Below, piece after piece: positions 10,472-23,593 of a stretch of 64,000 nucleotides of DNA; the first letter of the stretch is position 1, and each line of letters begins with the position of its first letter. The notes under the pieces were generated by a model. It saw only the letters and a program-made list of their open reading frames with translations, was not told the DNA's origin and did no database searches. The translations under genes were made by a program, and so were the position numbers. Source of the DNA: a virus; IMG/VR virus record IMGVR_UViG_3300020595_000010, positions 62,001 to 126,000 of that record, one strand, 5' to 3'.

Positions 10472-10609
10472 ATGTTTATAGACATTGAAGTATTAGCAGA
10501 TCAATGGGAATTAGAACAAGAACTAATAACCCAACTCCAAGAAGAATTATTAGAAAACCCAGGAATTTTCCTTACTGAAGAAGGGGAAGAAGATGATTTA
10601 CCATTCTGA
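10472..10609 (+). CDS. Very short acidic protein, 45 aa
   Basis: ATG at 10472 to TGA at 10607-10609 encodes a glutamate- and leucine-rich, probably helical peptide with an acidic tail (EEGEEDD). It sits in the 15-bp-spaced gap between two well supported genes in the same transcription unit. Function unknown. Confidence 0.5.
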   Translation: MFIDIEVLADQWELEQELITQLQEELLENPGIFLTEEGEEDDLPF

Positions 10610-10610
10610 T

Positions 10611-11006
10611 ATGAAAGTTCCAAATAATTTATATGTAAAGTGGACTGATAAAAAAGGCTATGGAGTCTTCACAGACACACCTATTAAAAAGGGAGAACTT
10701 ATTGAAAGATGCTATTGTATAAAAACTGGTAGTCCAAAAGACCATGTTAATGGTACTTTAATGGATTATGTATTTAATTATCCTAGAGGTACTAGTATGG
10801 ATAATGGAGCAGAACATGTATTACCTTTAGGTTTTGGTTGTATATACAACCATAGTAATGATAATAGTAATGCAATGTGGGATAATACTAAAGATATACC
10901 TTACCATTTTGATTTTATTGCTTTAAAAAATATTGAAGTTGGGGAAGAAATTTGCACTTATTATGGAGATGAATATTGGCCAACTAAAGACATATCACCA
11001 ATATAA
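10611..11006 (+). CDS. SET-domain protein (putative lysine methyltransferase)
   Basis: The 131-residue protein contains the core of a SET domain: GYGVFTDTPIKKGE at the N terminus, the NHS pseudoknot motif in CIYNHSNDNSN, and the C-terminal VGEEICTYYGDEYW motif with the active-site tyrosine. SET enzymes transfer methyl groups from SAM to lysines. The frame extends to an ATG at 10593 that overlaps the previous gene, but 10611 directly follows that gene's stop and is preferred. A target, host or phage, cannot be read from sequence. Confidence 0.8.
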   Translation: MKVPNNLYVKWTDKKGYGVFTDTPIKKGELIERCYCIKTGSPKDHVNGTLMDYVFNYPRGTSMDNGAEHVLPLGFGCIYNHSNDNSNAMWDNTKDIPYHFDFIALKNIEVGEEICTYYGDEYWPTKDISPI

Positions 11007-12134: not shown

Positions 12135-12314
12135 ATGATAGAATTTTTTAAACATGCTTTAGGATTATGTGGTGAACATTGGCACCCAAACATTTTTACA
12201 ATTATCTTAGGTGGGCTTGGATTATCCGCTCCATTTTCGTATATTAAATACAAATTAAACAGTTATGGCAATAAAAATAAGTCACGAAACACCCCTATGT
12301 CTATTAAACGATAG
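12135..12314 (+). CDS. Short membrane protein, 59 aa
   Basis: ATG at 12135, one base after the thyX stop, opens a 59-residue frame ending TAG at 12312-12314 that overlaps the next gene by 50 bp. It has a histidine/cysteine-containing N terminus (GLCGEHWHP) and one hydrophobic segment at about 20-37. The start position and composition favour a real gene, but the long overlap lowers confidence. Confidence 0.5.
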   Translation: MIEFFKHALGLCGEHWHPNIFTIILGGLGLSAPFSYIKYKLNSYGNKNKSRNTPMSIKR

Positions 12315-13056
12315 TAGACGATTTAATGATTATGACTATTGTCTTCCCCATTTATTGGATGAAGAACCAGGTTATTTAGAATATTTTTTAGAATCTAAAA
12401 GACAAGGTCGTTATATTATAATGGATAATTCTCTTCATGAATTAGGCGAAGCCTATAACCATGAACGTCTTGTATATTGGGTTAATGAATTAGAACCTAA
12501 TGAATTTATAGTACCAGATGTTTGGGAAAATTGTGTAGAATCTATTCAAAATGCTGAAATATGGAATATTTATGATTTTCCTGAAGGAGTTGAGAAAGTT
12601 GCTGTAGTTCAAGCAAAAACAATTCATGAAGCTTCACAATGTGTTAAAGCTTATAAAAATTTAGGTTACGGTAAAATTTGTTTTTCATATGGGGCTTCTT
12701 ATTATAATGATGTTTGTCCTCACCCAAATAAGGATTTAGGTAAAGCTTTAGGAAGACTTTATGTAATTTCAGCTTTAATGAAAATGGGAGATATTAAACA
12801 AGATGATAGAATTCATTTATTAGGATGTGCTGTACCCCAAGAGTTTGGGTGGTATGAAGGTATTAATTGCATAGAATCAATTGATACATCAAACCCAGTT
12901 ATGGCGACATTAGAAGATGTTCAATATAGAAATTATGGTTTATATCAAAAACCAAAAGCAAATATGAATGATTATTTTTATATGTTAAATGATCAAGTTG
13001 ATTATGATCTTTTAACTTACAATTTAGATGTGTTTAAAATGATAAATAATTTATAA
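12265..13056 (+). CDS. TGT/DpdA-like transglycosylase, putative DNA 7-deazaguanine inserter
   Basis: The 263-residue protein has features of the TGT TIM-barrel. IIMDNSLHELGE near residue 54 is placed like the DSGGFQ substrate loop, VPDV lies near 84, and HLLGCAVPQEFGWYEGINCIESIDTSNP (184-211) aligns by eye with the LMGVGTPDD...VDMFDCVMPTR region of TGT, putting D207 at the nucleophile position. Phage DpdA proteins of this superfamily exchange guanine in DNA for preQ0 or derivatives. It lies directly upstream of queC, queD and queE and has no tRNA-binding zinc domain, which supports a DNA target. Identification is by motif reading only. Confidence 0.65.
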   Translation: MAIKISHETPLCLLNDSRRFNDYDYCLPHLLDEEPGYLEYFLESKRQGRYIIMDNSLHELGEAYNHERLVYWVNELEPNEFIVPDVWENCVESIQNAEIWNIYDFPEGVEKVAVVQAKTIHEASQCVKAYKNLGYGKICFSYGASYYNDVCPHPNKDLGKALGRLYVISALMKMGDIKQDDRIHLLGCAVPQEFGWYEGINCIESIDTSNPVMATLEDVQYRNYGLYQKPKANMNDYFYMLNDQVDYDLLTYNLDVFKMINNL

Positions 13057-13057
13057 A

Positions 13058-13252
13058 ATGGCAAAACTAACAAGAAATGTAAATTACGCAAATTACAGAT
13101 GGGAAGAATATGTGTTAACCGAAGAAGAATTAACACAGTGGAAAACGGGTGATGAAGATATCCAACAAGAGATTATAGATAATGCAGATTGGGATCTAGT
13201 AAGAGATAAACCAATTGATGATTACAGTGAACCAGAATTTATAGAAGAATAA
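13058..13252 (+). CDS. Hypothetical acidic protein, 64 aa
   Basis: A small, tryptophan- and aspartate/glutamate-rich soluble protein that follows the DpdA-like gene after one base. It probably belongs to the same transcript. No family recognised. Confidence 0.65.
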   Translation: MAKLTRNVNYANYRWEEYVLTEEELTQWKTGDEDIQQEIIDNADWDLVRDKPIDDYSEPEFIEE

Positions 13253-13256
13253 AGAT

Positions 13257-13481
13257 ATGTTAAAAAAACAATCAATAAGGTCTAATCAGACCATTTTTAT
13301 CAATAATAATGATAAATCAGCAAGTAAAGATGAAATTCTAGCACTTAGTGAATTTTGGACTGATAGAGAAGAAGGATTATTTCGAAAACTTCTTAAACAA
13401 GGTGGAAGTACAAAAATACAAGGTACTCATTTTAAAGTGGTTGTTGAAGAAAAACAACTTAAATTACGTGACATGCAATAG
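13257..13481 (+). CDS. Hypothetical protein, 74 aa
   Basis: A basic small protein with a polar N terminus (KKQSIRSNQT) and a helical middle section. It lies between the DpdA-like gene and queC. A weak AGCGT/ACGCT repeat overlaps its stop. Function unknown. Confidence 0.6.
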   Translation: MLKKQSIRSNQTIFINNNDKSASKDEILALSEFWTDREEGLFRKLLKQGGSTKIQGTHFKVVVEEKQLKLRDMQ

Positions 13482-13528
13482 CGTTTGCCTATACGCTTAA
13501 AATACCTGGCAAATATAAATAAATAAAA

Positions 13529-14401
13529 ATGACACAATTGGAATTAAATTTTAAGGACTCACGACGTCCGAAACACGCAGTAGTATCACTTTCAGGTGGT
13601 ATGGATTCAAGTACATTATTGCTTAAATGTCTTGATAAATTTGAAACAGTAACAGCTTTATCCTTTGACTATGGTCAAAAACATAAGGTTGAACTAAAAA
13701 GAGCAAGAGCATTAGTTGATTATTTAAATAGACAATGTACTGACAATAATTGTTATGGTGGTTGTAGAATTAAATATCAGGTTATTAAATTAGATGGATT
13801 AGTTGATTTACTAGATTCAGCATTAGTTGAAGGTGGTGAAGAAGTACCAGAAGGGCATTACGCAGCTGAAAATATGAAAGCTACTGTAGTACCTAATAGA
13901 AATAAAATATTTGCTTCTATAACTCAGGCAGTTGCTTTATCAGTAGCAAATAGAACAGAAGAAGGAACATCAATTGCTTTAGGAATTCATGCCGGGGATC
14001 ATGATATTTACCCTGATTGTAGACAAGAATTTAGAGATGCTGATGATCATGCTTTTAGAGAAGGTAATTGGGATGCTGAAAGAGTAGGTTATTATACTCC
14101 TTATCTTAAAGGTGATAAATTTACTATTCTTCAAGATGGAGAAGTATTATGTGAAAAATTAGGTATTGATTTTGATGAAGTTTATGCTAGAACAAACACT
14201 TCATATAAACCAACACCTGAAGGGTGGTCTGATTACAAATCAGCATCATCTGTAGAACGTATTGAAGCGTTCATTAAATTAGGAAGACCTGATCCAGTAC
14301 AATATGCCGATGAAACAGGTCCTGTTGATTATGAAACGGCAAGAATATATGTTGAACAAGTTCTTTCAGAATACGAAAAAGAACAATTAAAAATTAAATA
14401 A
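13529..14401 (+). CDS. queC: QueC, 7-cyano-7-deazaguanine (preQ0) synthase, zinc site lost
   Basis: The 290-residue protein has the PP-loop SGGMDSS (22-28), the QueC motifs VPNRN (121-125) and YPDCRQEF (161-168), and VERIEAF...GRPDPVQY at 242-259. QueC turns carboxy-deazaguanine into preQ0 with ATP and ammonia. It is longer than the usual 220-240 residues. The four-cysteine zinc site that normally precedes ERIEAF is absent: residues 223-241 contain no cysteine (DYKSASS where CGxCxxC is expected). A separate C70-x4-C75-x3-C79 cluster appears near the N terminus and could be a replacement metal site. Confidence 0.9.
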   Translation: MTQLELNFKDSRRPKHAVVSLSGGMDSSTLLLKCLDKFETVTALSFDYGQKHKVELKRARALVDYLNRQCTDNNCYGGCRIKYQVIKLDGLVDLLDSALVEGGEEVPEGHYAAENMKATVVPNRNKIFASITQAVALSVANRTEEGTSIALGIHAGDHDIYPDCRQEFRDADDHAFREGNWDAERVGYYTPYLKGDKFTILQDGEVLCEKLGIDFDEVYARTNTSYKPTPEGWSDYKSASSVERIEAFIKLGRPDPVQYADETGPVDYETARIYVEQVLSEYEKEQLKIK

Positions 14402-14402
14402 A

Positions 14403-14624
14403 ATGGAAAATAAAGAATTAAATAAAGAAGTAGATAAAATAGTTAACCAATTAGCAGGTGCTAATATAAAAGAATTACCTGATGCTTACATGCACCAAAA
14501 AATCAGTTTTATTAAATCTGGTGTAAGAATTTTAGGTTATTGTTTTATCCCATTTAGCTTGGGTTGGGCAACTGCTTTTCTTATATTGAGTGAAGTAATA
14601 GGTATAATCGAAGAATTAGTATAA
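14403..14624 (+). CDS. Small membrane protein, 73 aa
   Basis: A charged N-terminal half followed by a hydrophobic stretch at about 40-70 (one or two segments). It starts one base after the queC stop and lies between queC and the thioredoxin gene. Function unknown. Confidence 0.65.
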   Translation: MENKELNKEVDKIVNQLAGANIKELPDAYMHQKISFIKSGVRILGYCFIPFSLGWATAFLILSEVIGIIEELV

Positions 14625-14640
14625 ATTAAATAAATAAAAA

Positions 14641-14898
14641 ATGAATAGAGGAATTTTGTATTTCAGCGCACCATGGTGCGGACCTTGTAAAGTAATGTCT
14701 CCTTTGATGGAACAAATGGAAAAACAAGGAAAAATTAAGATGAAAAAAATTAATGTTGATTATGATGCTTCAATGCCTCAAAAATATAACATTAAAAGTG
14801 TACCTACTATGGTCTTAACAGATTTAGATGGTAATGAAATTAAAAGAACAACAGGAAATATGTCTGAGGTTCAAATAATGGAGTTTTACAATGGGTAA
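14641..14898 (+). CDS. Thioredoxin
   Basis: The 85-residue protein has the thioredoxin active site APWCGPC near residues 10-16 and the cis-proline loop KSVPTMVL near 55-62. It is short for thioredoxin (about 105), missing the first strand and helix, like T4-type small redoxins. It is a likely electron donor for the phage ribonucleotide reductase. Its end overlaps queD by 8 bp. Confidence 0.9.
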   Translation: MNRGILYFSAPWCGPCKVMSPLMEQMEKQGKIKMKKINVDYDASMPQKYNIKSVPTMVLTDLDGNEIKRTTGNMSEVQIMEFYNG

Positions 14899-15355
14899 AT
14901 TTTCATCAAGTAAAGTATTTGACGGGTTTAGTACAGTGTTTCGTCAATGGAAAGCTGAAGATACACATTGTAGATTTTTACATGGATATGGTATTAGTTT
15001 CAAAGTATATTTTGAAGGTGATTTAGATGATAGAAACTGGGTTTGGGATTTTGGTGGTATGAAGCGTGCTAAAACCCAAATTGAGGGTAAATCACCTAAG
15101 GAATGGATGGATTATATGTTTGACCATACTGTTATCATTGCAGAAGATGACCCAGGTATGAAAGGTTGGGAAACTATGAATCAACTAGGAGTAATTCAAT
15201 TAAGAGTAATTGAAGCTACAGGTGCAGAAAAATTTGCAGAATATATTTATAATAAGCTCAATGATTTTGTATTTGAAGAAACAGATAATAGAGTTAGAGT
15301 AACAAAAGTTAAATTTATGGAGCATGGAAAAAATGCTGCATATTATAGTGAATAA
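14891..15355 (+). CDS. queD: QueD-like 6-carboxytetrahydropterin synthase with altered metal site
   Basis: The 154-residue protein keeps the QueD/PTPS plan: catalytic C27 in HCRFLHG, D78-H79, a late TGAEKFAEYI segment and E144. The family binds zinc with three histidines, one in an FxxxH strand and two in HGH. Here the first is replaced (FSTVFRQW) and the second pair reads HGY, so only H31 of the three remains. The enzyme would convert dihydroneopterin triphosphate to carboxy-tetrahydropterin; with such a site it could be divergent or metal-independent. Its neighbours queC and queE support the pathway. Confidence 0.8.
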   Translation: MGKFSSSKVFDGFSTVFRQWKAEDTHCRFLHGYGISFKVYFEGDLDDRNWVWDFGGMKRAKTQIEGKSPKEWMDYMFDHTVIIAEDDPGMKGWETMNQLGVIQLRVIEATGAEKFAEYIYNKLNDFVFEETDNRVRVTKVKFMEHGKNAAYYSE

Positions 15356-15376
15356 AAAACCACTTAAAAAAATTGT

Positions 15377-16153
15377 ATGTTAAAAAGAATAGAAGATTAT
15401 AATAAAAATCTACCTGTTGTAGAAATTTATACAGCAGTTCAGTCAGAAGGATCAAGAGCAGGTTACCCAACAGTAGTTATTAGAACAACAGGTTGTACTC
15501 ATCGATGTTATTTTGGAGAAGGTGGTTGGTGTGACTCTTGGTATACTAGTATTCATCCTGAAAAAGGACATTTTAATTTCAAAGACATTATTGAAATGTA
15601 TGAGAAAAATCCTCATATAAAAGAAATGATGTTAACTGGAGGCTCACCTACTATGCATCCTGCTTTGGTAAATGAATTAACACATTTTGCACATGAAAAT
15701 GATATTTTTATTACTATCGAAACTGAGGGATCTCATTTCCTCCCCACAGACTATCCTATTAATTTATTATCTATTAGCCCTAAGTTTAGTAATTCTGTAC
15801 CAGTTGTAGGTGTTTTAACTCCCCAAGGTAAAGAAACGGATGAAAAAATGATTAAAACTCATAATAGGCTTAGACTTAATTATGATGCAATGAAACAATC
15901 AATTGAATATCATTCTGATTATCATATCAAACCAGTATGGGACGGTAAGGATGAAGGAGCATTAGCTGAGATTATGGAATGTATTAAAACATTAGAAGTA
16001 CCTCAACATAAAGTATGGTTTATGCCTGCTGGAGATTCAAGAGAAGCATTATTTAAGTCATACCCAGTATTATTTGATTGGGTTAGGGACAATGGTTATA
16101 GAATGACATGGAGACCTCACATTATTGCCTTTGAAGACAAAAGAGAAGTATAA
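15377..16153 (+). CDS. queE: QueE-like radical SAM 7-carboxy-7-deazaguanine synthase
   Basis: The 258-residue protein has the QueE opening (VEIYTAVQSEGSRAGYP) followed by a cysteine cluster C40-x3-C44-x7-C52, with D53 next as in QueE. It also has a SAM-binding MLTGGSPTMHP motif and a TIM-barrel-type remainder. It would rearrange carboxy-tetrahydropterin to 7-carboxy-7-deazaguanine. The cysteine spacing differs from the canonical CX3CX2C because of an inserted GEGGW-containing loop. It lies 21 bp after queD. Confidence 0.85.
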   Translation: MLKRIEDYNKNLPVVEIYTAVQSEGSRAGYPTVVIRTTGCTHRCYFGEGGWCDSWYTSIHPEKGHFNFKDIIEMYEKNPHIKEMMLTGGSPTMHPALVNELTHFAHENDIFITIETEGSHFLPTDYPINLLSISPKFSNSVPVVGVLTPQGKETDEKMIKTHNRLRLNYDAMKQSIEYHSDYHIKPVWDGKDEGALAEIMECIKTLEVPQHKVWFMPAGDSREALFKSYPVLFDWVRDNGYRMTWRPHIIAFEDKREV

Positions 16154-16287
16154 TGTCTAAAGAAGAAGCACTTGAAATACTGGAAGAAATATCAGAAAAT
16201 GTTAGTGTTTGTTGTGCTATAACAATGGAACCAGATGAAGTTTTACTATTAATAGATAAATTAAAGAAATACTTAGAAAATGTATAA
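16153..16287 (+). CDS. Very short acidic protein, 44 aa
   Basis: ATG at 16153 overlaps the queE stop (TAATG) and TAA at 16285-16287 overlaps the nuclease start. This tight packing on both sides argues for a real gene. The product is helical, glutamate-rich, with a CC pair in the middle. Function unknown. Confidence 0.55.
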   Translation: MSKEEALEILEEISENVSVCCAITMEPDEVLLLIDKLKKYLENV

Positions 16288-16618
16288 ATACAATGCAAAA
16301 TTAGATAGAGTTGTTGATGGAGATACTGTTGATGCCCTTGTAGATTTAGGATTTAATACTTGGAAAAAAGTAAGAATTAGAATGGTAGGGATGAATGCCC
16401 CAGAGTCAAGAACTAGAGATTTAGAAGAAAAAGCAAGAGGAATTGCTGCTAAAATTAGATTAGAAGAATTACTAGAAAAAGGATCATTTATTTTAGAATC
16501 TCAAGGTGTAGGTAAATACGGTAGATGTTTAGGAATTATATTTGTTAATGAAGTAAATGTAAATAAACAATTAATAACTGAAGGACATGCTGTAGAGTAT
16601 AATGGAGGGAAAAGATAA
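16280..16618 (+). CDS. Staphylococcal-nuclease-like (SNase) protein
   Basis: The 112-residue protein shows the SNase pattern: VVDGDTVDALVDLGF near the N terminus with calcium-binding aspartates, RIRMVGMNAPESR with the catalytic arginine and glutamate region, and GKYGRCLG with the second arginine. It has no signal peptide, so it would act in the cytoplasm, possibly in host DNA degradation or repair. The size is close to a minimal SNase domain. Confidence 0.85.
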   Translation: MYKYNAKLDRVVDGDTVDALVDLGFNTWKKVRIRMVGMNAPESRTRDLEEKARGIAAKIRLEELLEKGSFILESQGVGKYGRCLGIIFVNEVNVNKQLITEGHAVEYNGGKR

Positions 16619-16619
16619 A

Positions 16620-17006
16620 ATGCATTATATAACCCAACACCCAATTAAAAAATCAGATTTAGGATTCCATGGAAATTTATTTGGAGGAAAATTACTAGCT
16701 TGGTTAGATGCAGCAGCTGCTTCTTATGCTTCTGAGTTTTGTGATACCCCACGAATGGTAACTAAGAGTATAGATAAATGCATTTTTAATAAACCTGCTA
16801 AAGAAGGTCAGTTATTAAAAATATATGGTGATGTAAAAAAAATTGGAACTACTTCTTTAACATTATATATGGAAGCACGTTCACATAATGTTTATAATGG
16901 AAAGCAAAATGTTATTTTAGCAACAAATATTACATTTGTTAGAATAGATGAAATGGGAGATGCTATCCCAATATCAGATAGAGTTAAATCAAAATTAAAA
17001 ATATGA
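16620..17006 (+). CDS. Hotdog-fold acyl-CoA thioesterase-like protein
   Basis: The 128-residue protein has HGNLFGGKLLAWLDAAAA near its N terminus, a strong match to the YciA/acyl-CoA hydrolase family in which the asparagine and the aspartate of the long helix are catalytic. An in-frame ATG at 16602 exists, but 16620 directly follows the nuclease stop and is preferred. This family cleaves acyl-CoAs; why a phage carries one among deazaguanine genes is unclear. Lipid remodelling before lysis is one idea without direct support. Confidence 0.75.
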   Translation: MHYITQHPIKKSDLGFHGNLFGGKLLAWLDAAAASYASEFCDTPRMVTKSIDKCIFNKPAKEGQLLKIYGDVKKIGTTSLTLYMEARSHNVYNGKQNVILATNITFVRIDEMGDAIPISDRVKSKLKI

Positions 17007-17506
17007 ATCAATTAATTAGTGCTAAAGATATAGATATCCAAACAAAAATAGTTGCAAAACAAATATCAGATGAACATAAAGGTGATAAAACTCCTGTAGT
17101 AATGGTTGGGTTACTTAATGGTTGTTTTGCGTTTTATGCTGATTTAGTACGGGCTATGCCAATTGATGTGGAATGTGATTTTATGCGCGTTAAATCGTAT
17201 ATAAATCGTAAACAAGGCGATATAGTTATTGCTAAAGACCTTGAGACTCCTATTAAAGGTAAGCATGTTTATATTGTAGATGACATTTATGACACTGGAA
17301 ATACTATGAAAGTTGTTATTGATTATTTAAATGTTAAAAAACCAGCTTCTATTTCAATTGTAAGTTTAGTTACTAGAAAATCATCCCCAACACCTCCAGT
17401 TAAAATGTTTAATGCTTTTAAGATTGATAATGAGTGGTTAGTTGGATTTGGGATGGATAATGAAAAAGGTTATTTAAGAAATTTACCTGCTATTTATTCT
17501 CTATAA
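17003..17506 (+). CDS. Hypoxanthine/guanine phosphoribosyltransferase-like protein
   Basis: The 167-residue protein has the PRPP-binding signature VYIVDDIYDTGNTM near residues 88-101 and the HPRT-like order (VVGLLNGCFAF loop before, LVGFGMDNEKGYLRNLP near the C terminus). HPRTs salvage purine bases to nucleotides. It overlaps the thioesterase by 4 bp (ATGA). In this context it may salvage purines released from host DNA or, speculatively, handle a deazapurine base. Confidence 0.8.
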   Translation: MNQLISAKDIDIQTKIVAKQISDEHKGDKTPVVMVGLLNGCFAFYADLVRAMPIDVECDFMRVKSYINRKQGDIVIAKDLETPIKGKHVYIVDDIYDTGNTMKVVIDYLNVKKPASISIVSLVTRKSSPTPPVKMFNAFKIDNEWLVGFGMDNEKGYLRNLPAIYSL

Positions 17507-17516
17507 TATTTATAAT
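17507..17516 (+). promoter_or_regulatory. TATTTATAAT motif, putative late promoter
   Basis: An exact TATTTATAAT lies 8 bp before the start of a predicted structural gene that is embedded among metabolic genes, as expected if it gives that gene its own late timing. Confidence 0.55.
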
Positions 17517-17524
17517 AAAATACT

Positions 17525-18997
17525 ATGGGAAGACCTCTTAAACACGCTACATCAAAACCTGCAAGATCTATGAGGCAGGGGAATATTGCTGCTCGAGTAG
17601 GAAAAGGAAATATTGGCCCTACATCTGCAACAGGATATTATAATGCAATTGAACCTACAGAAATTGGTAAGTATGTAGTTTATAAAATGTTAGGAGCTTC
17701 CCAAGCACCTTTATCTTTTACTCCTCAAAATGATAATGAATTTTTAAGATTAGCTAATCAAGAAGGAGCAGGAGTTTCTGATGTCACATCAGCTTTAGAA
17801 TGGTTTGCTACGCAAAATAATTTTACAGTAGCAGCAATAATTAATTCTACAGGAAGCTTGAACGTTGATCCTTTTTGTATTTTTGATGCATTAGGTAATA
17901 ACCCATCACCTCAAGAAAAATGGTTTAATTCAGTTGCTCCTTTAGATAATATGAATGTAGATAATAGAGAGCATGCTTTATCTGAAATTGTATGTATGGA
18001 AAATACTACTGCTTATTGGGGTGCCCCCTATACTGGTACTATTATTTATGAAATAAATGGAAGTAGTATTACTACAAAGGTATCAGCTACATCAGCCCCT
18101 TCTAATGGCTCATTTGCAGCTATTGCTGGTCGTCGCTATGTAGGTAATAAACCAATATCAATTAAAGGTGTAAGTAATGGTCATGCTTTTTGTCCTATTT
18201 CTTATTATGGTAAAGAGTGGGGGTATTACTATTCTAGATATCAACCCCCAATAGTATTTTTCTATTGTCTTAAAGATAATACATCTATACAAATTTTTGT
18301 AGCTAATTCCTCATCAAGTGGTGGTAGAACCGGAATGGCGAATACTACATTACTTACAACTATTACTGGAAATGAAAATGATGTAGTAAATTATACATTT
18401 CCATCCTCACCAGATTATAGAAATTATTATATTACAATTAAATCAAATGAGCCTGTAGTAATGACTGCTAGAGGCACCTTAGGAGATAAATCAATTGGAG
18501 CTTTAGCAGGTGAGTATAATTATAGAAGAAGAAATGCATATGAAGCAACTGCTGAAAATACATCACCTTCTACTCAAGCTACTAATGTAGTTTATGATAA
18601 TTCTTATAATTCTTGGGCATTATCTATTGCAGATGGTTCAGGTGGGGATAATGAAGTAAGTATGCCTTTAGATATGTTAACTAAAAATTATACTTTTGGA
18701 GAACGTTTAAATTCTTATTATATTGTAAGTCCTTATGCTAGTAATAATATTACAATTTCTTCTTGGAATGGTGGTAGTTGGGAAATATTCTCAACTCACA
18801 CAGTTAATGGAACAATAACTAGCCCTGCTTTTGCTGAAAGTGGATCACAAAGTGGTGGTGGGGGTAATTTTAATGGTAACAGATTATGGAAGTTTACAGG
18901 TGATGATCCCTTTTACATTGTTGTTAACGATAATGGTAGAGATGAAGAAATGTTATTAGGATGGAATACCGGAGAAGTAGATACATTTTTTATGTAA
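17525..18997 (+). CDS. Predicted virion structural protein, 490 aa
   Basis: A long serine/asparagine/glycine-rich, beta-structured protein with few charged residues and many short strands. Its start includes GNIGPTSATGYYNAIEP, a type of segment found in tail/neck-associated structural proteins of marine T4-like phages (recalled, not searched). It is preceded by a putative late motif and followed by a host-type promoter, so it forms an isolated late unit. A tail or fibre-associated role is likely but not demonstrable. Confidence 0.6.
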   Translation: MGRPLKHATSKPARSMRQGNIAARVGKGNIGPTSATGYYNAIEPTEIGKYVVYKMLGASQAPLSFTPQNDNEFLRLANQEGAGVSDVTSALEWFATQNNFTVAAIINSTGSLNVDPFCIFDALGNNPSPQEKWFNSVAPLDNMNVDNREHALSEIVCMENTTAYWGAPYTGTIIYEINGSSITTKVSATSAPSNGSFAAIAGRRYVGNKPISIKGVSNGHAFCPISYYGKEWGYYYSRYQPPIVFFYCLKDNTSIQIFVANSSSSGGRTGMANTTLLTTITGNENDVVNYTFPSSPDYRNYYITIKSNEPVVMTARGTLGDKSIGALAGEYNYRRRNAYEATAENTSPSTQATNVVYDNSYNSWALSIADGSGGDNEVSMPLDMLTKNYTFGERLNSYYIVSPYASNNITISSWNGGSWEIFSTHTVNGTITSPAFAESGSQSGGGGNFNGNRLWKFTGDDPFYIVVNDNGRDEEMLLGWNTGEVDTFFM

Positions 18998-19011
18998 AAA
19001 TTTATATTTAG

Positions 19012-19043
19012 TTTGGAGTTAACCAAACATATTCGTATATTAA
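19012..19043 (+). promoter_or_regulatory. Host-type promoter TTTG-N20-TATATTAA
   Basis: TTTG at 19012-19015 and TATATTAA at 19036-19043 are 20 bp apart, preceded by GTTTGGAG as in other copies. It reads into folE. Confidence 0.75.
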
Positions 19044-19064
19044 ATCAAATAAAAAGTTATATTA

Positions 19065-19760
19065 ATGGAAAACAAACGAAGAAAAATTCACGAAGAATTA
19101 GAAGTAGTACAAACAGGTTTTGCAAATGGAGTTGCTGAAGGATTTCCCCTAGAACAATCTGAAAAAGATAAAATGATTGATGAAGCAGAAGTAGCTTATG
19201 GTCAATTTTTAGATGCTTTAAAATGTGATTGGAGAAATGATCCAAACTCAATGGAAACCCCAAGACGTGTAGCTAAAGCATATGTAAATGATTTATGGGC
19301 AGGTAGATATACTGCAATGTCTCCTATTACATCATTTCCTTCTGATGGTTATGATGGAATTATTATTGAAAGAAATATTCCTTTAACATCAATGTGTTCA
19401 CACCACCACCAAACAATTGGGGGGGTAGTTCATATTGGTTACATAGCAGGAGAAGGTGGTCAAGTAATTGGTTTAAGTAAACTAAATAGAATCGTTGAGT
19501 TATTTGGTCGTAGAGGAGCTATCCAAGAACAATTAACATCAGCTATTCATAATGCAGTATGTAAAATTACTGAAGGTAATAAAGGTGTTATTGTTACTAT
19601 TGTTGGTACTCATAATTGTGTGAGTTGTAGAGGTGTAAAACACCAAGGAGCAGCTATGGTTACAACCAAAGCATCAGGAGTATTTAGAGATAATGATAAT
19701 TTAGCAAGGAAAGAATTTTTTGACAGTCTGAAGATTAACAACGGAGGACATAATATTTAA
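19065..19760 (+). CDS. folE: GTP cyclohydrolase I
   Basis: The 231-residue protein has the catalytic/zinc motif SMCSHHHQTIGG (residues about 110-121), the GLSKLNRIVELF motif and the second zinc segment HNCVSCRG. It opens GTP to dihydroneopterin triphosphate, the first step towards preQ0 and towards folate. With queD, queE and queC it completes the GTP-to-preQ0 route within 6 kb, and it has its own host-type promoter. All zinc ligands appear intact, unlike in the phage QueC and QueD. Confidence 0.95.
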   Translation: MENKRRKIHEELEVVQTGFANGVAEGFPLEQSEKDKMIDEAEVAYGQFLDALKCDWRNDPNSMETPRRVAKAYVNDLWAGRYTAMSPITSFPSDGYDGIIIERNIPLTSMCSHHHQTIGGVVHIGYIAGEGGQVIGLSKLNRIVELFGRRGAIQEQLTSAIHNAVCKITEGNKGVIVTIVGTHNCVSCRGVKHQGAAMVTTKASGVFRDNDNLARKEFFDSLKINNGGHNI

Positions 19761-19773
19761 AATAATAATAGTT

Positions 19774-20271
19774 ATGAGTAAAAGTAATGTACCATTTGTA
19801 AATGAAGTAGAGGAATTTAATTCCACTATGGGTAAACCAAACAATTATGAACCTACAATCCCTGAAAAAAAGGAGTGGCAATTTGTTTATGATTTCATCC
19901 TCGAAGAACTCGAGGAATATAAACATGCTTGTGAAACAGGAGATATTGTTGAGATTCTTGATGCTTTATGTGATATTGCCTACGTTTCGTTGGGTAATGG
20001 AACTATGCTACATGGTCTTAAGGATAAGATATGGCCAGCATATCAAGAAGTACAAGGGTCGAATATGTCAAAGGCTTGCTCAAGCGAAGAGGATGCACAA
20101 GCGACCGTGGAGCTTAGATCAAAAGAGCAAGAGGAACCATGTCACTATGAGAAGGTTGGAAAATATTATATTGTCTATAGAACACGTGATAGAAAAGTGA
20201 TGAAAAATATTAATTACTACCGCCCGGACCTTAAACAATTCTTTACTAAGGAAGAAATTAAAAATTCATAA
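19774..20271 (+). CDS. MazG-like nucleotide pyrophosphohydrolase
   Basis: The 165-residue protein contains EELEEYKHACETGDIVEILDALCDIAYVSLG, the EExxE...D..D metal-binding pattern of the MazG/all-alpha NTP-pyrophosphatase superfamily, in its first half. The C-terminal half is not recognisable. Such proteins hydrolyse NTPs or dNTPs, or lower (p)ppGpp in some phages. It follows folE by 13 bp and is likely co-transcribed, so nucleotide-pool control is plausible. Confidence 0.75.
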   Translation: MSKSNVPFVNEVEEFNSTMGKPNNYEPTIPEKKEWQFVYDFILEELEEYKHACETGDIVEILDALCDIAYVSLGNGTMLHGLKDKIWPAYQEVQGSNMSKACSSEEDAQATVELRSKEQEEPCHYEKVGKYYIVYRTRDRKVMKNINYYRPDLKQFFTKEEIKNS

Positions 20272-20981: not shown

Positions 20982-22664
20982 ATGTATAAAAAATGTTTTG
21001 CACAACGAAAAAAAGGAAATCAATTTTTGATTCACCTTTGGGAAGATACAGGTTATAGTAAAGTTGAATGGACTAATCAAGCTTATGTCGAGTGTGATGA
21101 TAATCAATCTACTCACACAGGTCTAAATGGAGAATCTTTAAAGAAAATAGCAAATTGGAAGTCAGATAATTCTAAACTTCACTTCCATGATATGACCCCA
21201 TACCAGAAATTTTTAGTAGAAAAATATGGGGTTAATGATGAACCTTCTACTACCCAAAAAGAATTTTTCTTTGATATTGAAACAGAAATGGGTGATGCTC
21301 TTACTGAAGATTATATCAAATCAGCTCCTAAAAAAGTAACATCAATTGCTTGGTACGATAAACAAGTAGATGAATGGGTTATTTTAATTTTAGACCCAAA
21401 ATCTAAATTAAAACGAACAAAGGCTAAAACAAAGGAAATTATACCTTGTGCTACTGAAGAAGAGTTATTACTTAAATTTCTAGAACGATTTAGAGAAATT
21501 GATCCTGATATTGTGGTAGGATGGAATAGTGATTATTTTGATATTCCATATTTGTATTATAGAATGTGTAATGTATTAGGGCAAGATGTAGCACGTTATT
21601 TATCCCCAATAGGCTATGTTCGAGAAACCCCTTGGTTTAAGGATCAATATATCCAAATTGCAGGAGTTGAATCTTTAGATTATATGAGACTACATAAAAA
21701 GTTTAGTTGGAAAGATGAGCCATCTTTTAAATTAGATGTTATTGGTGAAAAATATGCAGGTTTAAATAAAATTGAATATGATGGGAATTTAGATAAATTA
21801 TTTGAAGATGATCCACTTAAATTTATTCAATATAACTTTCGAGATGTTGAAATATTAAAAGTATTAGATGAAAAATTAGAATATTTATCATTAGTAAAAA
21901 ACTTAGCTCATAAAGGTAAACATAATTATAGTGAAGTTTATGCTAATACAAAAACTCAAGATGGAGCAATTTCAGCTTACTTACTAAGTAAAAAAATAGT
22001 TCCACCTGCTAAAGATCGTAATCCCCTATCTAAAAAGAATTATGCTGGTGGTTATTTATTCTGTCCTAAGGCTGGTATTTACAATTATGTATTTGATGAG
22101 GATTTAACTTCACTATACCCTTCAATTATAATGACTATTAATATTGGTAAAGAAACTATGGTTGGTAGGATTATAGATGCTGACGACAGAAATAATCGTT
22201 TAGGGTTAAATGATTTAAAACGTAGGGATCCTGAAGAAGAATTTATAGTAGAGAATATTAAAAGAAGTAGAACAAAAGTTAATGTTGGTCGATTAATTTC
22301 TATGATAGAACAAAATGAACTATCAGTATCAGCTAATGGGGTATTATTTAACACAAATCGTGAATCAGTACTATCAACCATATTAAAGAAATGGTTTGAT
22401 GAAAGGGTTTTATATAAAAACAAAATGAAAAAAGCATATAAAGCCGGGGATAAAGAGGCAGGTGCTGGTTTTCATATGAAACAATATACTATGAAGATTT
22501 TACTTAATTCATTATATGGCGCTACGGCTTTAGGGTCATTCCGTTATGGGAATGTTATATTATCTGAAGCTATAACGCTTAGTGGACAGCGAATTATACA
22601 GGAATCTGCACTAGCAGCTAATAGACATATGAATAAAGTAATGAAAAATGAAATAAAATTATGA
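20982..22664 (+). CDS. DNA polymerase family B, N-terminal part (exonuclease, palm motifs A and B)
   Basis: The 560-residue chain holds the proofreading exonuclease motifs: D98-x-E100 (FFFDIETE), N182...F186-D187 (GWNSDYFD) and Y284...D288 (YNFRD). It also has polymerase motif A DLTSLYPSI (D374) and motif B KILLNSLYG (505-513). It stops before motif C, which lies in the next gene. Together the two chains total 870 residues, close to T4 gp43. The stop overlaps the downstream ATG by 4 bp (ATGA), so the parts are translationally coupled and presumably assemble into one enzyme. Confidence 0.9.
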   Translation: MYKKCFAQRKKGNQFLIHLWEDTGYSKVEWTNQAYVECDDNQSTHTGLNGESLKKIANWKSDNSKLHFHDMTPYQKFLVEKYGVNDEPSTTQKEFFFDIETEMGDALTEDYIKSAPKKVTSIAWYDKQVDEWVILILDPKSKLKRTKAKTKEIIPCATEEELLLKFLERFREIDPDIVVGWNSDYFDIPYLYYRMCNVLGQDVARYLSPIGYVRETPWFKDQYIQIAGVESLDYMRLHKKFSWKDEPSFKLDVIGEKYAGLNKIEYDGNLDKLFEDDPLKFIQYNFRDVEILKVLDEKLEYLSLVKNLAHKGKHNYSEVYANTKTQDGAISAYLLSKKIVPPAKDRNPLSKKNYAGGYLFCPKAGIYNYVFDEDLTSLYPSIIMTINIGKETMVGRIIDADDRNNRLGLNDLKRRDPEEEFIVENIKRSRTKVNVGRLISMIEQNELSVSANGVLFNTNRESVLSTILKKWFDERVLYKNKMKKAYKAGDKEAGAGFHMKQYTMKILLNSLYGATALGSFRYGNVILSEAITLSGQRIIQESALAANRHMNKVMKNEIKL

Positions 22665-23593
22665 AGCATTTAGAAGATACTCCTTGGTGGATTTGTGATC
22701 CTGAAGATACAAATTATGTTGCATACTCTGATACCGATTCAATCTATATACATGCAGAACCATTACTTAGACATTTATACCCTAACTTTGAAGAAATGTC
22801 AAGTGAAGAAAAAGATGATGTTTTAGAAGAAGCAGCTTTAAAATACCAAGATATTATTACTGACTCCTATAGTGATCTAGCATCAGATTGTTTTAATGCT
22901 AGAGGTAAACATAGACTTGAAATGAAAACTGAATGTGTGATCAGATCAGCTTATTTTAGAGCTACAAGAAGATATGCTCAGTGGATTACTAAACAAGAAG
23001 GAATTGTAAAAGAATCACTTGATGTAAAAGGTCTTGAATTTAAAAAAGCAAATTTCCCTCCAGTGTTGGGTAAATTTTTTCACAAGACCTTAGTTGATGT
23101 TTTGAAAGGAGAACAACAAGAAGAGATAGATAAAAGGTTAAAAAAATTCAAAACCCAAATATTAGATGGTACAATTCCTCTTACCGAATTAGGTAACCCA
23201 ACATCCGTAAAAACATTAAATAAATATACTGAACGAAAAGCAAGGGCAGGAGAAATGTTTACAGTAGTAGCTAAAGGAGCTCCAGCAGCTGTAAGGGCAG
23301 TTATAAGATATAATGATTTACTTAATTTTTGGGGGTTAAACAAAACCCACCGTCAAATTGCTCAAGGTGATAAAATTAAATGGATTTACTTAAAACCAAA
23401 CCCATACCAAATTGACGCAATTGCCTTTTTAGAGTGGGATTTGCCAGAAAAAATTCGTATGTTTATTGAGCAAAATGCAGATAGGAAAAAGATTTTCGAA
23501 TCAATACTGCTTAATAAACTAGAAGGATTTTATAATGATTTAGGGTGGACTTTAAATTTAAACCCTTATAAAGAAATGTTTTTTAAATTTTAA
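22661..23593 (+). CDS. DNA polymerase family B, C-terminal part (palm motif C, thumb)
   Basis: The 310-residue chain opens with about 20 residues and then motif C, YSDTDS (22-27), with both catalytic aspartates; the rest matches the thumb region by position. The split lies between motifs B and C, inside the palm. Sequence directly upstream gives no intron, intein or homing endonuclease. A sequencing frameshift is unlikely because both ends look like genuine gene ends in an ATGA overlap, but a base-level check would settle it. Confidence 0.9.
   Translation: MKHLEDTPWWICDPEDTNYVAYSDTDSIYIHAEPLLRHLYPNFEEMSSEEKDDVLEEAALKYQDIITDSYSDLASDCFNARGKHRLEMKTECVIRSAYFRATRRYAQWITKQEGIVKESLDVKGLEFKKANFPPVLGKFFHKTLVDVLKGEQQEEIDKRLKKFKTQILDGTIPLTELGNPTSVKTLNKYTERKARAGEMFTVVAKGAPAAVRAVIRYNDLLNFWGLNKTHRQIAQGDKIKWIYLKPNPYQIDAIAFLEWDLPEKIRMFIEQNADRKKIFESILLNKLEGFYNDLGWTLNLNPYKEMFFKF

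Follow-up and report, generated by a model that had tools for sequence, protein, structure and literature searches.

How would a large virus that carries the genes for a modified guanine place that base in its own DNA, which base is it, and what becomes of the guanine that it displaces? These questions are raised by a gene cassette within a 64,000-nucleotide stretch (the window), bases 62001-126000 of the 163,571-base virus record IMGVR_UViG_3300020595_000010. The cassette appears to encode FolE, QueD, QueE and QueC, the enzymes that lead from GTP to 7-cyano-7-deazaguanine (preQ0), together with a candidate DpdA inserter and a purine phosphoribosyltransferase. The reading that we favour with moderate confidence, on the basis of sequence, is that the cassette would make a 7-deazaguanine from GTP and swap it for guanine in the phage DNA, as preQ0, with salvage of the released guanine. 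The genes that carry this reading are listed below by window coordinates, with the E values of family matches in brackets.

12265..13056, + strand: DpdA-like DNA-guanine transglycosylase, 263 residues, the proposed inserter (phrog_19058, fold and conserved residues)
13529..14401, + strand: QueC-like 7-cyano-7-deazaguanine synthase (Pfam QueC, 1.6e-36; no CxxCxxC zinc motif)
14891..15355, + strand: QueD-like 6-carboxytetrahydropterin synthase (PTPS, 7.9e-15; phrog_2389, 1.1e-39)
15377..16153, + strand: QueE radical-SAM 7-carboxy-7-deazaguanine synthase (phrog_2076, 1.7e-53)
17003..17506, + strand: hypoxanthine-guanine phosphoribosyltransferase (HGPRT)-like protein (NCBIfam HGPRTase, TIGR01203, 8.6e-44)
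19065..19760, + strand: FolE GTP cyclohydrolase I (Pfam GTP_cyclohydroI, 3.3e-41)

The route from GTP to preQ0 through FolE, QueD, QueE and QueC is an established pathway, and the window's enzymes are assigned to its steps by homology only. DpdA would then break the glycosidic bond of guanine in DNA and join preQ0 in its place. The modification would be expected to make the phage resistant to host restriction, by analogy with other phages in which deazaguanine in the DNA protects against restriction enzymes (PMC6884629; this and the other papers given by PMC number are cited from excerpts). An earlier note made from the letters alone (the original prediction) had named the four enzymes and a TGT/DpdA-like barrel, and all five genes are indeed there on the + strand with family matches; FolE reaches 141.1 bits against a cut-off of 27 and has the CSHHH and HNCVSC residues. 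Much the same gene set recurs in the contigs of relatives, which argues that the cassette is not a chance arrangement. Our sample of the window's clade comprised 61 DpdA relatives of 55-100% identity from other viral contigs, several of them the same virus. QueC lies nearby at 58 of the 61 loci, and at all 43 where at least 3 kb downstream of dpdA is available. Among 25 unique FolE sequences of the clade, 19 show CSHHH and 19 HNCVSC or HSCVSC, six lacking a match in each case.

The protein encoded at 12265-13056 matches phrog_19058 (E 6e-42), a family of no assigned function in PHROGs that is also matched by the DpdA of Flavobacterium phage vB_FspM_immuto_2-6A (NC_055915; immuto below) and by a protein of Campylobacter phage CP220, each about 37% identical to the window barrel. 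An AlphaFold2 model built on an alignment of 69 sequences (pLDDT 94.1, pTM 0.90) has, as predicted, the TGT/DpdA-type barrel fold. Structure comparison gave Z 17.2 to the ArcTGT 1iq8 and Z 17.1 to the DpdA 7ui4, with a root-mean-square deviation of 3.2 over 231 residues, so that the inserter proposed in the original prediction is borne out in its fold. All 69 aligned relatives, two of them only 22-23% identical, share D54, D85, Q116, H184, G187 and D207, and in an alignment the Asp and His motifs coincide with those of the DpdA proteins of phages Iggy and TA17A. There is also a weak sequence match to 7ui4 across the HLLG...SID stretch (E 0.12). By chain order alone, the Asp and Gln residues would be the counterparts of D102, D156, Q203 and D280 of the Z. 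mobilis TGT. An unrelated barrel family, which the original prediction had considered, was rejected, as all 50 Foldseek matches listed from the PDB were TGT or DpdA. An aldolase identity was also rejected (NCBIfam match at E 0.028, 13.3 bits against a cut-off of 568.8).

Several points weigh against calling this protein a DpdA. PF01702 (TGT) is unmatched at E <= 1 throughout the record, the barrel itself has no Pfam match at E <= 0.1, and the nearest named relatives stand at 37%. Comparison of the barrel family's profile with four other phage DpdA proteins gave a probability of 13% (E 0.0022). The profile check suggested in the original prediction thus turned out weak on the DpdA side (PADLOC model of bacterial DpdA, E 0.021 over 47 residues) and empty on the TGT side; the PADLOC models at E <= 0.1 also miss the DpdA proteins of Iggy and TA17A. 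Given the weak profile comparison, the link to other phage DpdA proteins rests on fold and motifs, and given in addition the lack of a PF01702 match, membership of DpdA rests on fold, motifs and PHROG. From the fold and the conserved active-site residues we infer that the window barrel is a compact DpdA of the phrog_19058 family, a predicted inserter of deazaguanine into DNA. It is highly improbable, in our judgement, that the genes instead raise queuosine in host tRNA for translation and that the barrel is not a DNA enzyme. The preQ0 pathway is shared with tRNA queuosine, and a tRNA role has been raised for marine Bacteroidetes viruses (PMC7198788). Against it stand the small size of the barrel, the annotated phage DpdA among its nearest named relatives and the missing PF01702 match. 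The tRNA enzyme, moreover, carries a CxCxxC motif, which the barrel lacks.

The pathway downstream of preQ0 divides the relatives of this DpdA. QueF (PF14489) is unmatched at E <= 1 anywhere in the 163,571 bases of the record, the same profile finding the immuto QueF at 4.1e-15 as a positive control; the absence of QueF claimed in the original prediction accordingly extends to the entire record. The PurN-like formyltransferase that accompanies QueF in immuto is likewise unmatched at E <= 1 in the window's record. In two other contigs (164,122 and 164,118 bases), both of which start elsewhere and carry the same DpdA, the final and the initial 150 bases of the record are separated by 417 bases. 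Judged by this spacing, the genome would be circularly permuted, about 164.0 kb long and covered almost completely by the record, so that a QueF hidden by fragmentation is unlikely. The sister lineage was sampled through relatives of the immuto DpdA, of which the best 80 of 98 were taken. With the immuto QueF as query, tblastn found a match at none of the 61 loci of the window clade whereas 70 of the 80 immuto-clade loci had one. Where at least 3 kb downstream of dpdA was available, QueF was found in 0/43 loci against 67/67 in the sister lineage and the formyltransferase in 0/43 against 63/67; the latter was absent from all 61 fetched clade loci. Among long records taken whole, QueF passed its cut-off in none of eight from the window clade, two of which belong to the window's own virus, and in all seven of the sister lineage. 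Two window-clade long records gave sub-threshold QueF matches in frames of 212 and 219 residues, which were taken as FolE. Hence the two DpdA lineages come with two different pathway ends. As a matter of annotation, the immuto QueF (L002:26096-27016 in our locus set) carries the product name 'GTP cyclohydrolase' while its note says QueF, and its PHROG is labelled in the same way.

The earlier steps do not follow this division. In trees of dereplicated sequences (60 rows for QueE, 64 for QueD, 49 for QueC, 54 for FolE, 60 for MazG and 89 for DpdA), the label of the DpdA lineage changes 10 times for QueE, 12 for QueD, four for QueC, twice for FolE, three times for MazG and, by construction, once for DpdA. 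With branches under an SH-aLRT of 90 collapsed, the counts are 7, 5, 3, 1, 2 and 1 in the same order, and shuffled labels gave averages of 12 to 30 changes. These changes indicate that genes of the early pathway, most of all QueE and QueD, move between lineages, and QueF stays with one inserter lineage.

With no match to QueF, the formyltransferase or PF01702, the base most likely stays preQ0, which we regard as the likeliest inserted base; 7-amido-deazaguanine (ADG) is the main rival. CAjan and Rosebush, phages with DpdA and the four preQ0 enzymes and no amidotransferase, carry dPreQ0 at about 32% and 28% of G (PMC6884629). An archaeosine or preQ1 route encoded by the window's phage was rejected on the same three negative searches of the record; there was no match to the preQ0 transporter family PF02592, and the ArcS model was not searched as such. 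Ten conserved ORFs (open reading frames) of the cassette and its neighbourhood were scanned, and no Pfam family pointed to a further tailoring enzyme. Residues 142-144, after a core strand of the barrel, provide a lead and no more: they read YGA in all 48 distinct window-clade sequences, FDY in all 60 from the immuto clade and FSG in the three of the CP220 type, and are three of 34 positions that separate the two DpdA clades. By chain order they presumably correspond to the site at which the tRNA enzyme recognises the side chain of its base.

The base could also be preQ1 or a further derivative, made by a host QueF or by an unrecognised phage enzyme. The host might have a QueF that reduces preQ0 before it is inserted, which counts against preQ0 as the final base; the sister lineage has QueF and the PurN-like formyltransferase beside dpdA, and several conserved small ORFs of the cassette match no known family. 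We nevertheless think this quite unlikely, given the absence of both enzymes from the record and from all 61 clade loci and the contrast of YGA with FDY at residues 142-144, which would suit different ligands without demonstrating them.

A stronger case can be made for ADG, either because QueC stops at the amide or because DpdA selects ADG, as in the phages CP220 and CPt10. CP220 encodes the related phrog_19058 protein, has annotated QueD, QueC and FolE and shows no QueF match over the cut-off, and its DNA is reported to carry dADG at 100% of G rather than preQ0 (PMC8306585). This report weighs against preQ0, and on its account the original prediction's view of preQ0 as the simplest product, although still the likeliest, stays an inference. 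ADG is, furthermore, an intermediate of QueC (PMC13329287). Window QueC, however, retains all pocket motifs of canonical QueC (PF06508 cluster 1), namely SGGxDS, YxQxHxxE, VPxRN and YPDC, plus the Tyr that corresponds to Y189; in CP220 QueC two of them are altered (FPDC, YGSNH); SGGMDS is present in 40 of 41 unique clade sequences. Y35, R99, Y131 and Y189 are reported as essential in E. coli QueC (PMC13329287), and all four are kept in the window while CP220 has Phe at the third. The loop at 142-144 also differs (YGA against FSG), and QueC has crossed between the two DpdA lineages, as its four label changes indicate. We therefore hold ADG to be unlikely, if less so than preQ1.

The metal sites of QueC and QueD bear on the same choice. 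The zinc motif C(x)8CxxCxxC is gone from QueC: CxxCxxC occurs in 0 of 57 clade segments and in 0 of 25 from the immuto clade, the latter count covering those of the 80 loci that have QueC in reach. It is kept in the QueC of CAjan, TA17A, phi47:1 and CP220 and is not found in that of Iggy. In QueD, HGY replaces HGH in 49 of 50 clade segments (one without a pattern match), and the Cys position is taken by Phe, within ST.FRQ, in 45 of 50 (five without a match). The His residues of HGH bind zinc. CAjan and TA17A keep HGH in QueD; Iggy and phi47:1 share the HGY form, which makes it a wider phage type. With canonical metal-site residues gone and zinc stated to be required for QueC (PMC13329287), either enzyme could have an altered activity, a further point against a straightforward route to preQ0. 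The sister lineage, however, pairs the same zinc-less QueC with QueF, which suggests that this QueC still yields preQ0, provided that preQ0 does not come from the host; this also speaks against ADG. QueF acts on the nitrile preQ0. QueE has the cluster motif C-x3-C-x7-C, with x7 in 39 of 41 clade segments and x8 in two, and the same enlarged loop is seen in the immuto lineage (63/68) and in Cellulophaga phage phi13:1. One relative (L059) has two QueC-like ORFs flanking dpdA, 80% and 74% identical to window QueC.

Gp036 of phi13:1 (L074:15288-16067) and a protein of Chryseobacterium phage MA9V-3 (L075:19890-20684) are called 'hypothetical', yet they align with the DpdA motifs. Both genes lie near FolE, QueD and QueE or homologues of these, with no QueC annotated in the stretch, and the base that the two phages insert may be one formed ahead of the QueC reaction.

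Each exchange would free one guanine, and the phosphoribosyltransferase of the cassette would most likely return it to GMP and on to GTP. The recycled GTP is the substrate of FolE, so that a cycle would be closed, as suggested by gene linkage. The window protein scores 149.2 bits against TIGR01203, just under the cut-off of 150, and the immuto counterpart is XGPRT-like, matching a xanthine phosphoribosyltransferase model at 2.4e-16, below that model's cut-off. Among loci that hold queE, folE and mazG (22 of the window clade and 64 of the immuto clade), a purine phosphoribosyltransferase is present in all 86, or 56 after dereplication at 95% DpdA identity. It is HGPRT-like in 14 and 12 loci of the two clades and XGPRT-like in 8 and 52, never both. 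Its strand is always that of folE; in 85 loci it lies upstream of folE at a distance of no more than 2.5 kb, and in 75 the distance is at most 300 bases. The type switches five to six times on the DpdA, FolE and QueE trees.

These counts have to be set against a simpler explanation, namely ordinary purine salvage by a phosphoribosyltransferase that gene-order inertia has kept in place and that has no relation to base exchange. Phages often carry nucleotide-metabolism genes. In eight named phage records searched with PF00156 at E <= 0.01, matches were confined to immuto and phi13:1, and six phages with dpdA-like and que genes (CP220, MA9V-3, phi47:1, Iggy, TA17A and CAjan) had none. The match in phi13:1 lies about 19 kb from folE, and the complete replacement reported for CP220 in the absence of a PF00156 match indicates that heavy replacement does not require a phage phosphoribosyltransferase in every host; both points weigh against a role in salvage. 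Other neighbours, however, are not kept: of these 86 loci, 15 show the thioesterase, 23 the nuclease and only 11 ThyX, so that inertia explains the constancy of the phosphoribosyltransferase poorly; MazG cannot serve in this comparison because it helped to choose the loci. The two alternative types, moreover, swap mostly at the same place. A converse search that started from phosphoribosyltransferases found at least one cassette gene in 68 of 68 and in 78 of 80 loci (the latter the best 80 of 133), 146 of 148 together; with loci that share sequence with dpdA-fetched ones removed, the figures are 38/38 and 54/56, or 92/94. The survey took in loci fetched by dpdA or by phosphoribosyltransferase. 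We consider inertia possible but doubtful, and the linkage suggests that the phosphoribosyltransferase salvages guanine released by DpdA. Among the literature matches listed, no paper joined DpdA and a phosphoribosyltransferase.

The phage itself is far-T4-like. Its major capsid protein is of the T4 type (Gp23, E 7.9e-76) and is 61% identical to that of immuto, 53% to that of Microcystis phage Mel-JY01 and 38% to that of Rhodothermus phage RM378. The host is likely flavobacterial: a Shine-Dalgarno-like 4-mer precedes only 1 of 51 gene starts (4.9 expected), and a contig assigned by binning to a Flavobacteriales genome carries a relative with a 79% identical barrel. For the N-terminal half of PolB, encoded by its first gene, Microcystis phage Mel-JY01 is the best named match (34%), which is against such a host or neutral. 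The Bacteroidetes -7 promoter motif TANNTTTG occurs 97 times where 107 are expected, and this count below expectation gives the host no support. PolB is encoded in two overlapping genes, 20982-22664 and 22661-23593 of the window, whose products match a single DNA polymerase family, phrog_262, at its positions 17-569 and 565-850. Taken as a whole, a more ambitious picture would be a closed, high-level guanine-to-preQ0 cycle in far-T4 flavophages, with much of the genome's guanine replaced, recycling by the phosphoribosyltransferase, QueD and QueC without their metal-site residues, early genes exchanged between lineages, and an inserter with or without QueF fixing the base. We offer this only tentatively, as it is more likely to fail in some part than to hold throughout.

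The remaining features of the cassette are as follows.

13058..13252, + strand: small conserved ORF, in 10 of 41 clade representatives; no PHROG match
13257..13481, + strand: small conserved ORF, in 26 of 41 clade representatives; no Pfam or PHROG match
14403..14624, + strand: small conserved ORF, in 24 of 41 clade representatives; no Pfam match
14641..14898, + strand: thioredoxin-like protein (Pfam Thioredoxin, 1.2e-17)
16280-16618, + strand: nuclease-like ORF (phrog_452 endonuclease), seen in 23 of 86 loci
16602-17006, + strand: thioesterase-like ORF (4HBT), seen in 15 of 86 loci
Between the phosphoribosyltransferase gene and folE, + strand: 490-residue ORF without assigned function
19774..20271, + strand: MazG/PRA-PH-type nucleotide pyrophosphohydrolase adjoining folE (PRA-PH, 6.3e-10; 75% identical to immuto gp208)

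The thioredoxin-like gene is present in all 22 clade loci that hold queE, folE and mazG. Upstream of the cassette, 10593-11006 encodes a 137-residue ORF with a weak phrog_28741 match and, by reading of its sequence, some look of a SET-domain protein; relatives of it (43% and 40%) lie inside the cassette region of two other loci (L037 and L046). A thymidylate-kinase-like gene stands shortly downstream of dpdA in immuto and CP220 (L002:25570-26094, L011:12813-13355, L003:5572-6102), and the window's phage has a distant relative of it (23%) far from dpdA.

Deazaguanine in phage DNA and its anti-restriction role (PMC6884629) are already known, as are que genes in Bacteroidetes viruses, in whose marine representatives queuosine genes are widely found (PMC7198788). 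The original prediction's view that the pathway is little studied in this host group was therefore half right: immuto already has annotated DpdA, FolE, QueC, QueD, QueE and QueF, and Cellulophaga phages have annotated que genes. A 2023 paper by Cui et al. on further deazaguanine derivatives exists (cited in PMC12783734), and part of the picture of DpdA subfamilies may be in print there. The arrangement described here and the guanine-recycling partner may be new, and the split between lineages with and without QueF, the phosphoribosyltransferase and the missing metal-site residues had no place in the original prediction. DpdA3 with full replacement, formyl-preQ1 in immuto and the proteins DpdM, DpdN and DpdL have reportedly been described by others, and we have not used them as evidence. 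Our reading would extend the replacement of DNA guanine to a group of large phages, probably of flavobacteria, that is represented in dozens of viral contigs. It would make DpdA lineage plus QueF a simple genomic predictor of the final base, and the lack of metal-site residues in both QueD and QueC casts doubt on the supposed requirements of two well-studied reactions. The fate of the guanine released in large-scale base replacement has been neglected, and the constancy of the phosphoribosyltransferase is relevant to it.

Among known systems, the Cellulophaga phages phi13:1 and phiST resemble the window in FolE, QueD and QueE. Gp036 of phi13:1 (259 residues) has the same motifs and its phiST homologue the same fold as the window barrel (TM 0.85); phi13:1 also shares a PF00156 match, about 19 kb from folE. 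Unlike the window, phi13:1 has no QueC annotated in the stretch read, and its DpdA-like protein belongs to phrog_20335; IMG/VR relatives of that type are 22-23% identical to the window barrel. CAjan and Rosebush-type phages share DpdA, FolE, QueC, QueD and QueE without QueF, and in them dPreQ0 has been measured (PMC6884629), but their DpdA is of another subfamily by the profile comparison above, and CAjan and the Rosebush relative TA17A keep the QueC and QueD metal-site residues and have no PF00156 match. CP220 is like the window in its phrog_19058 protein (APL47_gp056), QueD, QueC and FolE and in showing no QueF over the cut-off; it differs in a QueC with the zinc motif and altered pocket motifs, in the lack of a PF00156 match, and in genes spread over some 55 kb rather than held in a cassette, and its reported product is dADG. 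Immuto is a further close system. Its DpdA is only 37% identical to that of the window, QueF and the PurN-like formyltransferase lie just downstream of dpdA while neither is found in the window's phage, its polymerase is PolA where the window's phage has a split PolB, and its phosphoribosyltransferase is XGPRT-like rather than HGPRT-like. It nevertheless shares the PHROG of DpdA, the capsid protein at 61% and the enzymes FolE (62%), QueC (69%), QueD (67%), QueE (84%) and MazG (75%).

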